The notes under the pieces are model-generated. The model made no database searches, was not told the DNA's origin, and saw only the letters and a program-made list of their open reading frames with translations. Made by a program: the position numbers and the translations under genes. Shown one piece after another: positions 226 to 6,484 of a stretch of DNA of 6,484 nucleotides (position 1 is its first letter; each line of letters opens with the position of its first letter). Origin of the DNA: a bacterium (GTDB lineage: Bacteria > UBP15 > UBA6099 > DSWB01); assembly GCA_020061125.1 (NCBI GenBank), contig JAGUYV010000137.1, positions 1 to 6,484 on the forward strand, given 5' to 3'.

Positions 226-999
226 TTATTCGCCCTTGAACTCGGCTTTGCGCTTTTCGAGGAATGCGCCGATGCCTTCCGCGGCGTCCTTGGTTTTGAC
301 GACCTGGCAGAAGTCGTCGCACTCGATGTCCAGGCCTTGTTCCATAGTGGTCTCCACGCCGCGGTTCACGGCGTCGAGGATATACTTTGTGGCAAAGGGC
401 GCGCGCGCGGCGCAGGCGGCCGCCACGGCTTTGGCTTCGTCCAGAACCGTGCCTGCGGCGCACAGCTTGTCCGCCAGTCCAATTTCCACGGCTTCTTTGG
501 CGCTGCACGCCTTGCCCAGGATCATCAGTTCGAGGGCCTTGGGCTTGCCGATGAGCCGCGCCATGCGCTGCGTGCCGCCGTAACCGGGGATGATGCCCAG
601 GTTGGACTCGGGCAGGCCGATCATTTTCACGGTTTCATCAATGAAGCGCCAGGTGCATGACAGGGCCATTTCGCAGCCGCCGCCCAGGGCCACGCCGTTG
701 ATGGCCGCGATCACGGGCTTGCCGCACCGCTCGATTTTAAGGAAACAACCCTGGCCTTTCTTGATTAAATCCGCGGGGTTTTCGCCGAATCCGCTCTTGA
801 GGTCGGCGCCCGCGCTGAAGGCTTTTTCGCCCTCTCCGGTGATGATGATGGCGCGCACTTCCTTGTCCGCGGTCAGTTCGGTAATGGCCGCTTCCATGTC
901 CTCAAGCAGTTGCACATTGATGGGATTGAACGGCGGCCTATTGATGCTCACGATTGCGTATCCGTTTTCCTTTGCCACATTCACTGTTTCGTATGCCAT
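226..999 (-). CDS. Enoyl-CoA hydratase (crotonase family)
   Basis: Cytoplasmic crotonase-fold enzyme of 257 residues, the usual family length. It likely adds water across a 2-enoyl-CoA to give 3-hydroxyacyl-CoA in beta-oxidation or its reverse. Visible signatures: the first oxyanion-hole segment AFSAGADL (60-67); ALGGGCE (104-110), giving the second oxyanion-hole glycine and the first catalytic Glu110; and GLPE (128-131) with the second Glu131, followed by LGIIPGYGGTQR (134-145). Both glutamates needed for hydratase activity are present, which argues against an isomerase-only member. They lie 21 residues apart, one more than the 20 of rat crotonase (Glu144/Glu164). The C-terminus FLEKRKAEFKGE is typical of the family. 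An in-frame ATG at 1071 would add 24 residues, but it overlaps the promoter elements; the ATG at 999 has a strong ribosome site 10 bases upstream and starts like the family. A short-chain (crotonyl-CoA) substrate is plausible but unproven. Confidence 0.92.
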   Translation of the reverse strand: MAYETVNVAKENGYAIVSINRPPFNPINVQLLEDMEAAITELTADKEVRAIIITGEGEKAFSAGADLKSGFGENPADLIKKGQGCFLKIERCGKPVIAAINGVALGGGCEMALSCTWRFIDETVKMIGLPESNLGIIPGYGGTQRMARLIGKPKALELMILGKACSAKEAVEIGLADKLCAAGTVLDEAKAVAAACAARAPFATKYILDAVNRGVETTMEQGLDIECDDFCQVVKTKDAAEGIGAFLEKRKAEFKGE

Positions 1000-1009
1000 G
1001 AGTACGGTT

Positions 1010-1015
1010 CCTCCC
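1010..1015 (-). promoter_or_regulatory. Ribosome binding site that fixes the hydratase start
   Basis: On the minus strand GGGAGG, followed by AA, lies 10 bases before the ATG at 999-997. It sits in the same CCGGGAGGA context as the sites before the thiolase and the acyl-CoA dehydrogenase. It rules in the start at 999 over the upstream in-frame ATG at 1071, which has no comparable site and lies within the predicted promoter. Confidence 0.8.
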
Positions 1016-1061
1016 GGATTATCGGCGAAATGCGTCCCGCTCTCTCCGGCGGGGCGATCAG

Positions 1062-1090
1062 ATTCTATCATCGGGCATGCGGGGCGTCAA
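1062..1090 (-). promoter_or_regulatory. Sigma-70-like promoter for enoyl-CoA hydratase
   Basis: On the minus strand TTGACG (1090-1085) is followed, after exactly 17 bases, by TAGAAT (1067-1062). Both boxes match the sigma-70 consensus at five of six positions. Transcription would start near 1055 and give a leader of about 55 bases with the ribosome site near its end. The leader can form a short CCCGC/GCGGG stem (1053-1049 with 1040-1036). The promoter lies in the 114-base gap after the thiolase stop, so the hydratase can be expressed apart from the thiolase; no terminator is visible in that gap, so read-through from the thiolase is also likely. Predicted from sequence only. Confidence 0.55.
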
Positions 1091-1113: not shown

Positions 1114-2307
1114 TTACACCCTGTCCACGATCATGGCGATGCCCATGCCGCCGCCGATGCACAGGGAGGCCAGGCCGCGGGCTGCGTCCTTTTCCTGCAT
1201 GGCGTAAAGCAGGGTCACGAACACGCGCGCGCCCGAGCAGCCGATGGGATGGCCCAGGGCGATGGCGCCGCCGTGGATGTTGATCACATCCATGCGGTTC
1301 TCAAGCCCGAGATCGCGCACCACGGCCAAAGCCTGGGACGCAAACGCTTCATTCAACTCGAAGATGTCAATGTCGTCCAGGGAACAGCCGGCTTTTTGCG
1401 CGGCCTTGCGCGATGACGGCGCAGGCCCCATGCCCATGTATGCGGGATCCACGCCCGCGGATGCATAGGACACGATTTTCGCGATCGGCTTGAGGCCAAG
1501 CTCATCAACTTTTTCTTTGGACGCGAGAATCACGGCGGCGGCGCCGTCGTTGATGCCCGAAGCGTTGCCTGCGGTCACGGTGCCGCCGTCTTTTTTGAAG
1601 GCCGGGGGCAGTTTGGCCAGGGCCTCGGCCGTGGTGCCAGCGCGCGGATGCTCATCCGTGTCGAACGCCAGGGGATCGCCCTTGCGCTGCTTGATGCTCA
1701 CGGGCACGATCTGGGACTTGAATGCGCCGGATTCGATGGCCTCGCATGCGAGCTGCTGGCTGCGCGCGGCGAAGGCGTCCTGATCCTGGCGGCTGACGCC
1801 GTATTTTTCCGCGATGTTCTCTGCGGTCATGCCCATGTGATAGCCGTTGAAAATCTCGAACAGGCCGTCGTGTATCATGGTGTCAATTACGCTGCCCTGA
1901 CCCATGCGATAGCCCCAGCGCGCGCCGGGCAGGGCGAAGGGTGCGGCGCTCATGTTCTCCATGCCGCCCGCGGCCACGATGTCCGCATCTCCGCACTGGA
2001 TGGCCTGCGCGCCCAGGGCGATGGCTTTAAGGCCGGAACCGCACACCTTATTGATGGTGAACGCGGGGTTCTCCTTGGGAATGCCCGCTTGCATGGCGCT
2101 CTGGCGCGCGGGATTCTGACCCTGTGCCGTAGTCAGCACACAGCCCATGATGGTTTCCTCCACCTGCGCAGGCTCCACGCCCGCGCGCTGCATGGCCTCG
2201 ACCAGGGCCACGCGGCCAAGCTCCACGGCCGGGGTGTCCTTGAGCGTGCCGCCGAACCGGCCCACGGCCGTGCGAACCGCTGATGCGATGTATACATCTT
2301 TTATCAT
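1114..2307 (-). CDS. Acetyl-CoA C-acetyltransferase (thiolase)
   Basis: Thiolase of 397 residues, the standard length for biosynthetic/degradative acetoacetyl-CoA thiolases. It joins two acetyl-CoA into acetoacetyl-CoA plus CoA, or runs the other way as the last step of beta-oxidation. All active-site signatures are present: nucleophile Cys89 in [17 protein letters not shown] (114-120), [10 protein letters not shown] (248-257), NEAF (319-322), His353 in [16 protein letters not shown], and Cys383 in CIGGGMG. The N-terminus [16 protein letters not shown] is also typical. The ATG at 2307 is preceded by GGGAGGA with 8 bases between. The gene has a predicted promoter of its own after the terminator of the upstream unit, and the enoyl-CoA hydratase follows 114 bases downstream. 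Acetyl-CoA acetyltransferase (AtoB/PhaA type) is the best call; a broader 3-ketoacyl-CoA chain range cannot be excluded from sequence. Confidence 0.95.
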
Positions 2308-2408: not shown

Positions 2409-2437
2409 CCGCGCGGGCAGGGCTGCAAAATGTAAAA

Positions 2438-2464
2438 ATCCCCCGCACGCATCCGGCGGGGGAT
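2438..2464 (-). terminator. Intrinsic terminator after the isomerase-like gene
   Basis: A perfect nine-pair stem, ATCCCCCGC with GCGGGGGAT, encloses a nine-base loop (2447-2455). On the minus strand the stem runs straight into TTTTACATTTT. There is no T run on the plus-strand side, so it acts only on minus-strand transcription. It ends the unit holding the acyl-CoA dehydrogenase and the isomerase-like gene, and separates that unit from the thiolase. Confidence 0.88.
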
Positions 2465-2469
2465 GAATC

Positions 2470-2511
2470 TGTCCGGAACAATCCTGACATGGCGCGGGCC
2501 AGGCCCGCGCC
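2470..2511 (-). repeat. Two further inverted repeats in the 3' untranslated region
   Basis: Between the TGA of the isomerase-like gene (2517-2515) and the intrinsic terminator lie two more potential hairpins. The first, at 2491-2511, is a palindrome of ten-base arms around a single central base; as RNA it would fold with an eight-pair GC stem and a five-base loop. The second, at 2470-2489, pairs TGTCCGGA with TCCTGACA apart from one mismatch, around a four-base loop. With the terminator they make three adjacent stems. They may protect the transcript's 3' end or reinforce termination; neither role can be shown from sequence. Confidence 0.6.
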
Positions 2512-2514
2512 GCG

Positions 2515-3579
2515 TCACTTGCCTTTGCGGCTTTTTATCACTTTGGCGATGAATCGCTTGTCCAGCCCCAAGACACGGAAGACTTCTTCATAGCAGGCCA
2601 CGGCGTCGCGGCGGGACTGCGCCTCGTTGAGAGCTTTCTTGTCTAAGCGCCGCGCGAGATCCCAGATGAATTCCCATTGGAGCACGCTGCGGCGCACGGC
2701 GTCCACCTGGTTCTCGGTGTATGGGAACAGGTCGTAGCCCACGCGCTCGCCGTTTGCGCCGTAGCCAACTCTCTGCAACTCCACGGCCAGGCCCAGCGTC
2801 TGCATGAAAAACGATGCGCCTACCATGTTGTCGTCGTCGAAGCTGCCCCAGCCGCTGTTGCCGTGCTGGTGCCCGAGCTTTCCTTCGGACGCGAGCAGGG
2901 CCGCGTACTCGGCCAGAGGCTCGCCGTTCATGATCAGATGCTGCCAGTCCATGTTCACAAGCACATGATCCGTGGGCACGCCGCGGTCCTTCACCTTCTG
3001 GATCGTGAACAGCGTCATGCCGATGTCGCGCATGAGGATGCGCATGGCCGGCTCGGAGTTTTTGTGTTCAAGCAGCATGGTCACGCCGTAGTCCGCGCAG
3101 TGCGCGGCCGCATCCGCGATGCCGTCTACGAACCACTCCCAGGTTTTGCCGTAATCCACCTGAAAAGGATAGTTGTAGCCCTCGGAGCCGGGCCAGATGA
3201 TGAACTTCGCGCCGATGTCCGAGGCCAGTTCGATACCCGCGCGGGTGATGGCGCGCACCTCTTTGCGGATTTTCAATGACGGGTTGATGAAAGAGCCGTG
3301 GCTGTACTTGGGGTCGCTGAACAGGCCCAGTGCGATGCAGTGGATGTCGCACGAGCCGAGCAGGGCCTGAATTCGCCCGAGGGTTTTTTCGTTGACCTCG
3401 CCGGGGTAATGGTACTCGAAACCGTCCACGATGTCCGACAGCCCGGCCACGGCGCGCTCCGTGCGCTGGAACATGGTTTCCTTTCCCGCCTCGGGCTGGT
3501 ATCCGCCGGGCATGAACCGCGTGGCGTTGCCCCCGAACGCCCAGATCCCCACACTGTTTTTCACTCTTTTTGCAGCCAT
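2515..3579 (-). CDS. Xylose-isomerase-like TIM-barrel protein of unknown substrate
   Basis: This 354-residue soluble protein matches the xylose isomerase layout when aligned from memory with the Streptomyces enzyme (about 388 residues). Landmarks in order: VGIWAFGG (10-17), His57 in the place of catalytic His54, Phe87 near PKYSHGSFINP, LASDIGAKFIIWPGSEG (118-134), Glu171 and Lys173 in LLEHKNSEP (metal ligand and catalytic Lys), Asp211 and His214 in NMDWQH, His237/His239/Asn241 in GHQHGN, Asp248 and Asp250 in FDDD, and Asp283 in GYDLFP. Differences: the metal-1 ligand Asp245 is replaced by His239, Glu217 by Asp211, catalytic Asp57 by Gly60 and Lys289 by Phe285. It is therefore probably a metal-binding isomerase or epimerase, but not a standard xylose isomerase. 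The ATG at 3579 follows GGGAGAGGA with five bases between, 25 bases after the acyl-CoA dehydrogenase stop, so the two are probably cotranscribed. The substrate is unknown. Confidence 0.75.
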   Translation of the reverse strand: MAAKRVKNSVGIWAFGGNATRFMPGGYQPEAGKETMFQRTERAVAGLSDIVDGFEYHYPGEVNEKTLGRIQALLGSCDIHCIALGLFSDPKYSHGSFINPSLKIRKEVRAITRAGIELASDIGAKFIIWPGSEGYNYPFQVDYGKTWEWFVDGIADAAAHCADYGVTMLLEHKNSEPAMRILMRDIGMTLFTIQKVKDRGVPTDHVLVNMDWQHLIMNGEPLAEYAALLASEGKLGHQHGNSGWGSFDDDNMVGASFFMQTLGLAVELQRVGYGANGERVGYDLFPYTENQVDAVRRSVLQWEFIWDLARRLDKKALNEAQSRRDAVACYEEVFRVLGLDKRFIAKVIKSRKGK

Positions 3580-5403: not shown

Positions 5404-5420
5404 CGCGGGCCTAACCCGCG
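5404..5420. repeat. GC-rich inverted repeat over the metallopeptidase stop codon
   Basis: CGCGGG (5404-5409) and CCCGCG (5415-5420) flank the five-base loop CCTAA, which contains part of the TAG stop of the metallopeptidase gene. The repeat touches the predicted -35 box of the next unit. There is no T run after it on either strand, so it is not a standard intrinsic terminator. It could be a weak transcript-end hairpin or an operator; chance is also possible in such GC-rich DNA. Confidence 0.4.
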
Positions 5421-6484
5421 CCGCCCACCACCAGGGAGGACAGCAGGATGTGCGGCCCGCCCGCGTTCACGGGCATGCCCTGCCCGGATTTGCCGCAGGT
5501 GCCCGGCATCTCCAGGCTGAAGGCGTTGCTCACGCCGATCACATTGGCGAGAGCCTCGAGAACCAGGCCGCTCACCGAGACATCGCGCACCGGCCTGTCG
5601 AGAATGCCGTTTTTGATGATCCAGCCCTCGGACGCGCTGCATGTGAACTGGCCCTTTTCCGTGGCCACATAACCGCCCAGCGCGCCCTTGATGTAAAGCC
5701 CGTTCCCGGCCATTTTGAGGAGATCCTCGAACGACGATTCGCCAGGCTCGAAAAATGTGTTGCTCATGCGCACAATGGGCGGATACTGGTGGTTCTGGGC
5801 GCGGGCGCTTCCCAGGGGCGTCATGCGGAAGTGCGCGGCGGTCTCGAGGCTGTGGAGAAAGTTGCGCACCACGCCGCGCTCGACCAGGGGGCGCCGCGCG
5901 CCGGGCGTGCCCTCGCCGTCAAACGCGTAACTGCCCCATGCGCCCGGGATCGTCGAGTCGTCGGTAATGTTCACAAGGTCCGACCCAATGCGCTCTCCCA
6001 TGCGGCCGGAGATGATGGATTCCCCGTTCCGCACCAGGTCCGCCTCGCTGTTGTGGCCGAAAGCCTCATGCGCGAGCAGGCCCGTTATGTCCGGGTCGAA
6101 CACAACGGGCATGGGACCTGACGGGGGAGGGGCCGCGGACAGCAGGGCCACGGCCCGCTCCGCGGCGGGCAGGCTGTAATTCTCTGGGGTGAGGTCCTCG
6201 ATCATCTCGAAGCCGGACTGCTGGCCGATGATCTCGCGGGCGATCTGTCGCGAGGCGTCATCCGAGGCCACCACGCTCAAGGCAATGCGTGTGCGCACGG
6301 AGCGGTTGCGTACGCAGGTTCCCCGCGTGTTGGCCACAATCATGTTTGTATCGCCGTCTCCGAACTGCAGGTTCGTGGCGGCCACGCGCTTGTCCGCGGA
6401 GCGCGCGGAGCGCTCCAGGGCGGCGAGTCTGGCGGCTTTTTCCCTGACCGGCACGGACGCGGGCGGCTTCTGAATCCCGCCGGG
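5411..6484 (-). CDS. tldD: TldD-type metallopeptidase, N-terminus cut off by window edge
   Basis: The reading frame is open from the window edge to a TAG at 5413-5411, giving 357 C-terminal residues. TldD proteins are about 450-480 residues, so roughly 100 or more N-terminal residues lie outside. A GTG at 6454 lies within the frame, but the frame stays open past it and the family is longer, so it is not the start. The zinc site HEAFGHNSE is intact at visible residues 139-147 (bases 6070-6044), with the HExxxH pattern. Near the C-terminus, GTCGKSGQGMPV supplies the conserved Cys330 ligand. These two motifs mark the catalytic TldD subunit and not the non-catalytic PmbA/TldE. Family members work as TldD/TldE heterodimers that cut unfolded peptides and mature some peptide toxins and RiPPs; no partner is visible here. 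It is separated from the dehydrogenase by only 90 bases, but that gene has its own predicted promoter. Confidence 0.88.
   Translation of the reverse strand, partial: PGGIQKPPASVPVREKAARLAALERSARSADKRVAATNLQFGDGDTNMIVANTRGTCVRNRSVRTRIALSVVASDDASRQIAREIIGQQSGFEMIEDLTPENYSLPAAERAVALLSAAPPPSGPMPVVFDPDITGLLAHEAFGHNSEADLVRNGESIISGRMGERIGSDLVNITDDSTIPGAWGSYAFDGEGTPGARRPLVERGVVRNFLHSLETAAHFRMTPLGSARAQNHQYPPIVRMSNTFFEPGESSFEDLLKMAGNGLYIKGALGGYVATEKGQFTCSASEGWIIKNGILDRPVRDVSVSGLVLEALANVIGVSNAFSLEMPGTCGKSGQGMPVNAGGPHILLSSLVVGGAG

Follow-up and report, generated by a model that had tools for sequence, protein, structure and literature searches.

A RhaI-type sugar isomerase from a widespread, apparently undescribed family predicted to act on D-xylose

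In the crystal structure of the L-rhamnose isomerase (L-RhI) from L. rhamnosus, Mn1 is bound by Glu228, Asp261, His288 and Asp328, and Mn2 by His264, Asp296 and Asp298 (PMC10908623). Among xylose isomerases, the non-canonical enzyme XylA-II of Clostridium acetobutylicum (CAC2610) was first found through its genome context (Gu et al. 2010, PMC2873477). Here we describe a sugar isomerase that shares features with both RhaI and the canonical xylose isomerase XylA. It is encoded on a bacterial contig of 6,484 nucleotides (JAGUYV010000137.1), which was analysed over its whole length and is referred to as the window. The features of the window are as follows.

226–1071, minus strand: enoyl-CoA hydratase (Pfam/NCBIfam)
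1114–2307, minus strand: thiolase (acetyl-CoA acyltransferase; Pfam/NCBIfam), the next unit downstream
2430–2514, minus strand: two strong hairpins, the second followed by TTTTT (−49.9 kcal/mol, z −4.8)
2515–3579, minus strand: RhaI-type sugar isomerase, predicted D-xylose isomerase, 354 amino acids
3605–5320, minus strand: acyl-CoA-dehydrogenase-like protein, 571 amino acids, GTG start, upstream of the isomerase
5411–6484, minus strand: TldD/PmbA metallopeptidase gene, cut short by the end of the contig so that the N-terminal part is missing

The isomerase open reading frame is intact, with an ATG at 3579 that is preceded by a purine-rich stretch and a stop codon that ends at 2515. The stop codon of the acyl-CoA-dehydrogenase-like gene ends 25 bases ahead of this ATG, and because the gap is so short the two genes are probably carried on the same transcript. 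The hairpins directly after the isomerase stop codon form a probable transcription terminator; they were not reported by a simple terminator scan. In the acyl-CoA-dehydrogenase-like protein, Pfam matches cover residues 133–385 only, the C-terminal 185 residues are without a Pfam match, and no NCBIfam model scores above its cut-off. This protein is present in just 6 of 59 other sampled genomes, at 60–73% identity.

The only Pfam match to the isomerase is AP_endonuc_2, the xylose-isomerase-like TIM barrel (1.7e-15), which has eight matches in the genome of the window, seven of them above cut-off. RhaI_grampos (TIGR02635) is the top NCBIfam model, with 69.9 bits over residues 9–340 against a cut-off of 531. 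The scores against xylA_Arthro (TIGR02631) and xylose_isom_A (TIGR02630) are 53 and 28 bits, where the cut-offs are 447 and 533, and no member of the isomerase's family reaches either of these XylA cut-offs. The top ketose 3-epimerase model gives 19 bits for the isomerase against a cut-off of 317, and other family members likewise match epimerase models weakly. In Pfam the isomerase does not match the FucI family (PF02952), to which the XylA-II type belongs; assignment to that type was ruled out, as it is a different fold family. The predicted xylose isomerase is missed by existing family models.

An AlphaFold2 model of the isomerase, built on the family alignment, has a mean pLDDT of 90.5 and a pTM of 0.89. 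Foldseek ranks the putative sugar isomerase 3ktc first, then Pseudomonas stutzeri L-RhI, then XylA. Superposition with VIA-align results in a Z score of 34.8 to 3ktc and of about 32–33 to XylA, the overall range to these structures being Z 31–35 with ∼320 residues aligned.

Two sources served to map the active site residues, HMMER alignments with xylose isomerases of class I and a MAFFT alignment of 46 rows. His57, Trp129, Glu171, Lys173, His214, Asp248, Asp250 and Asp283 of the isomerase are the same as at the matching XylA positions. Asp211 is situated at the position of XylA Glu217, and His239 at that of Asp245. The His54-Asp57 pair of XylA is not kept, as there is no equivalent of Asp57, where the isomerase has Gly60. 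The position of Lys289, which is mostly Lys in XylA and either Lys or His among the class I sequences aligned, is occupied by Phe285. The original prediction had listed both the retained XylA residues and these four replacements from a mapping by eye, and the two alignments agree with it throughout. Among 42 homologues from many phyla, 53–66% identical to the window isomerase, His57, Trp129, Glu171, Lys173, Asp211, His214, His239, Asp248, Asp250 and Asp283 are invariant in all 42, so that this set is not a product of chance; Gly60 and Phe285 vary among family members.

Asp and His are found at the 211 and 239 positions in all eight RhaI-type sequences of the 46-row alignment. A mapping in two steps, from the window isomerase to the RhaI of Thermogemmatispora and from there to P. 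stutzeri L-RhI, pairs Glu171, Lys173, Asp211 and His214 with Glu219, Lys221, Asp254 and His257, and pairs His239, Asp248, Asp250 and Asp283 with His281, Asp289, Asp291 and Asp327. The predicted ligands of metal site 1 are Glu171, Asp211, His239 and Asp283, and those of site 2 are His214, Asp248 and Asp250, to which Asp211 may be added by analogy. As judged from the alignments, which also underlie the proposed ligand geometry, both metal sites are complete and take the L-rhamnose isomerase form, and the protein would bind metal. The earlier proposal that site 2 is nearly complete while site 1 is changed therefore has to be given up. An altered or damaged metal site was ruled out, since RhaI carries these residues as a rule and none of the 42 homologues departs from them. 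Two proteins on the XylA side (L131 and L098) have an intermediate site composition, with Glu at 211, His at 239 and Lys at 285.

In a maximum-likelihood tree, the family of the isomerase forms one clade (support 100/100), RhaI forms a separate clade (100/100) that does not include the isomerase, and XylA classes I and II form two more. The branch that parts XylA from the family, RhaI and the 3ktc-like proteins has a support of 100/98, and the branching order among the latter three groups is left unsettled by the tree. The protein has a clade of its own and scores far below the RhaI and XylA cut-offs. Its description as a divergent isomerase is borne out. It is assigned to neither RhaI nor XylA, because tested features of each are lacking. 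The original prediction had also considered an already characterized family in which these residues are standard; RhaI is such a family as far as the residues go, but the isomerase is not a member of it.

The metal ligands identical to those of RhaI, the top rank of RhaI_grampos among the NCBIfam models and the place of P. stutzeri L-RhI among the top structural matches could indicate a divergent L-rhamnose isomerase. Such an activity is very unlikely in view of the large shortfall from the RhaI cut-off, the two fully supported clades and the type of the kinases linked to the family, and the same three grounds rule out membership in the L-rhamnose isomerase family.

Species genomes were scanned for the family and 146 relatives were confirmed; the loci of the best 80 were analysed. 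These 80 include Chloroflexota, Actinomycetota (Rubrobacteraceae, Thermoleophilia), Bacillota, Bipolaricaulota, Elusimicrobiota, Sumerlaeota and others, together with one metagenome-assembled genome (MAG) labelled Euryarchaeota. Phage records contained no match. A search limited to open-access papers turned up no account of the family, which is widespread and apparently undescribed.

At 63 of the best 80 loci, tblastn revealed a close XylB homologue in the fetched flank, and at 46 of the 80 it lies directly downstream of the isomerase gene, within 100 bp and on the same strand. Nine linked kinases that were tested in full score 543–687 bits against the XylB model TIGR01312 (cut-off 380), a model that also matches kinases acting on other pentuloses. 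Six of the nine were scored against the rhamnulokinase model TIGR02627 and reach 57–99 bits with a cut-off of 528, so that they are poor candidates for RhaB. At one locus (L034) the protein is a more distant FGGY protein and not XylB. In the window there is no rhamnulokinase linkage, nor is there a rhamnulose-phosphate aldolase gene among its Pfam and NCBIfam matches. Further neighbours in the relatives often include GH3 enzymes, ROK regulators and XylF- and XylG-like parts of D-xylose transporters, whose counts are lower bounds because longest-ORF calling in GC-rich loci gave spurious reading frames. The GH3 neighbour shown in full has a β-xylosidase/α-L-arabinosidase as its top model, under that model's cut-off.

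Canonical XylA of either class is found in one of 50 family genomes, that of Thermoanaerobacter wiegelii. Among the 39 family genomes with a linked xylB the count is also one, compared with 16 of 43 control genomes (Fisher p 8e-5), where the controls are the genomes with XylB above cut-off from a broad set of 290, and where phylogenetic independence is lacking in family and control genomes alike, many of them being incomplete draft MAGs. The scarcity of XylA in family genomes is support, not proof, for a role in xylose metabolism. FucI-family genes are present in 19 of the 50 genomes, and 22 of the 39 xylB-linked genomes yielded no XylA and no FucI-family gene. Seven of the 50 also carry a true RhaI above cut-off next to their family gene, and this speaks against a role of the family as the rhamnose isomerase there.

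Linkage to a xylulokinase would fit any aldose that yields D-xylulose, and a single RhaI enzyme has been reported to act on several aldoses (PMC10908623). The family might thus serve another aldose whose ketose is accepted by XylB or enters the same pathway, for example D-lyxose converted to D-xylulose, with D-xylose as a minor substrate. In T. wiegelii (L037, 7995–11889) the family gene (7995–9023) lies directly upstream of a canonical xylA and then xylB, all in the same direction; this organism would have little need of another xylose isomerase, which counts against the xylose reading, and the two genes may do different jobs. Even so, a main role on another aldose is unlikely: 38 of the 39 xylB-linked genomes are without canonical XylA, which would leave many of them without a D-xylose isomerase, and the nearby XylF-type transporters and GH3 xylosidase-like genes point to xylose. 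The xylA of T. wiegelii belongs to class II, so that two predicted xylose isomerases adjoin each other, and a GH3 gene is situated near the family gene.

Taken together, we consider it likely that the isomerase is a two-metal aldose-ketose isomerase on the RhaI plan and that its family is a separate lineage of D-xylose isomerases feeding XylB, and we infer that D-xylose is the substrate. The suggestion that the enzyme differs from XylA in its substrate is, if anything, contradicted by the gene context. The evidence also favours, with slightly less assurance, a third D-xylose isomerase lineage with the RhaI-type Asp/His site instead of the Glu/Asp of XylA, present in at least Chloroflexota, Actinomycetota, Bacillota and several candidate phyla, as the missing xylose isomerase of, for example, Rubrobacteraceae and Thermogemmatispora.

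The window copy itself is found in a different setting. No kinase lies near the isomerase gene in the window, and the gene is outside any xyl operon, among β-oxidation genes. The assembly of the window, which is 79% complete, contains neither canonical XylA nor XylB above cut-off, the top XylB score being 224 bits; this absence of XylB and the β-oxidation setting also count against the xylose reading. Two diverged FGGY kinases are present in the assembly, with XylB as their top model. Six genomes of the same order were searched and yielded no such isomerase, apart from one 27% match. Three same-order genomes carry the acyl-CoA-dehydrogenase-like gene at 73% identity, and in both of those with readable downstream sequence it is followed by other genes. 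Because of this absence, and because other genes follow the native upstream gene, the isomerase gene was probably acquired by the organism of the window. The GC3 of the isomerase is 0.83, matching its neighbours, so that composition gives no hint of a recent arrival from elsewhere or of a contig joined wrongly.

A transferred copy could have taken on a changed or minor role, for example on some other sugar, as would fit the assembly without XylA or above-cut-off XylB, the six same-order genomes in which only the 27% match was found, and the neighbouring acyl-CoA-dehydrogenase-like, thiolase and enoyl-CoA hydratase genes. We regard this as quite improbable, since all key residues are kept, the kinase may be missing from an assembly that is 79% complete, and the two FGGY genes have XylB as their top model. 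We infer that the window copy retains the D-xylose isomerase function predicted for the family despite lying outside a xyl operon.

On the model of RhaI and XylA, the open-chain sugar would be held at O2 and O3 by a structural metal that Glu171, Asp211, His239 and Asp283 coordinate. The other metal, coordinated by His214, Asp248 and Asp250 and bridged to the first by Asp211, would activate water and drive a hydride shift between C1 and C2. Lys173 would contact O1, and His57 may help to bind the sugar or to open the ring. The family enzyme would then supply D-xylulose to the xylulokinase XylB. The metal chemistry is most likely RhaI-like and the pathway role XylA-like.

If this is correct, the family would fill the missing xylose isomerase step in many genomes that are positive for xylulokinase and lack XylA, including those of cultured thermophiles, and it would offer a fresh scaffold for the heavily used industrial glucose/xylose isomerase activity. 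In that case there would also be reason to think that substrate does not have to follow the type of site, Glu/Asp as in XylA or Asp/His as in RhaI, so that these two residues would be unfit for assigning function.

The closest solved structure is 3ktc, a putative sugar isomerase from Erwinia (Pectobacterium), which is 25% identical to the isomerase and differs by an Asp at the position of His239. In the tree, the relatives of 3ktc on Rhizobiales plasmids stand on the isomerase's side. Three of these proteins (L124, L125 and L126), which are 32% identical, carry Asn in place of His57 and Gly in place of Asp250, and their metal site 2 looks genuinely changed in the alignment. They are encoded in operons with a sugar ABC transporter, a PfkB/ribokinase-type kinase and an RpiR regulator.

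RhaI (TIGR02635), represented by P. stutzeri L-RhI (2hcv) and L. rhamnosus L-RhI, shares with the isomerase the fold, the His101-type histidine, the Trp, the Lys and all seven metal ligands (Glu-Asp-His-Asp and His-Asp-Asp). It differs in its separate clade, and the isomerase is about 23–27% identical to the RhaI proteins compared; among relatives of the isomerase no rhamnulokinase linkage was seen. The XylA-II enzyme CAC2610 belongs to the FucI family and is not homologous to XylA, whereas the isomerase has a TIM-barrel fold and belongs to the XylA/RhaI superfamily. XylA of classes I and II shares the fold and the equivalents of His54, Trp137, Glu181, Lys183, His220, Asp255, Asp257 and Asp287. 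The isomerase departs from it in the exchanges of Glu217 for Asp211 and of Asp245 for His239 and in lacking equivalents of Asp57 and Lys289, but its relatives, like XylA, are linked to xylB and to xylose transport genes.
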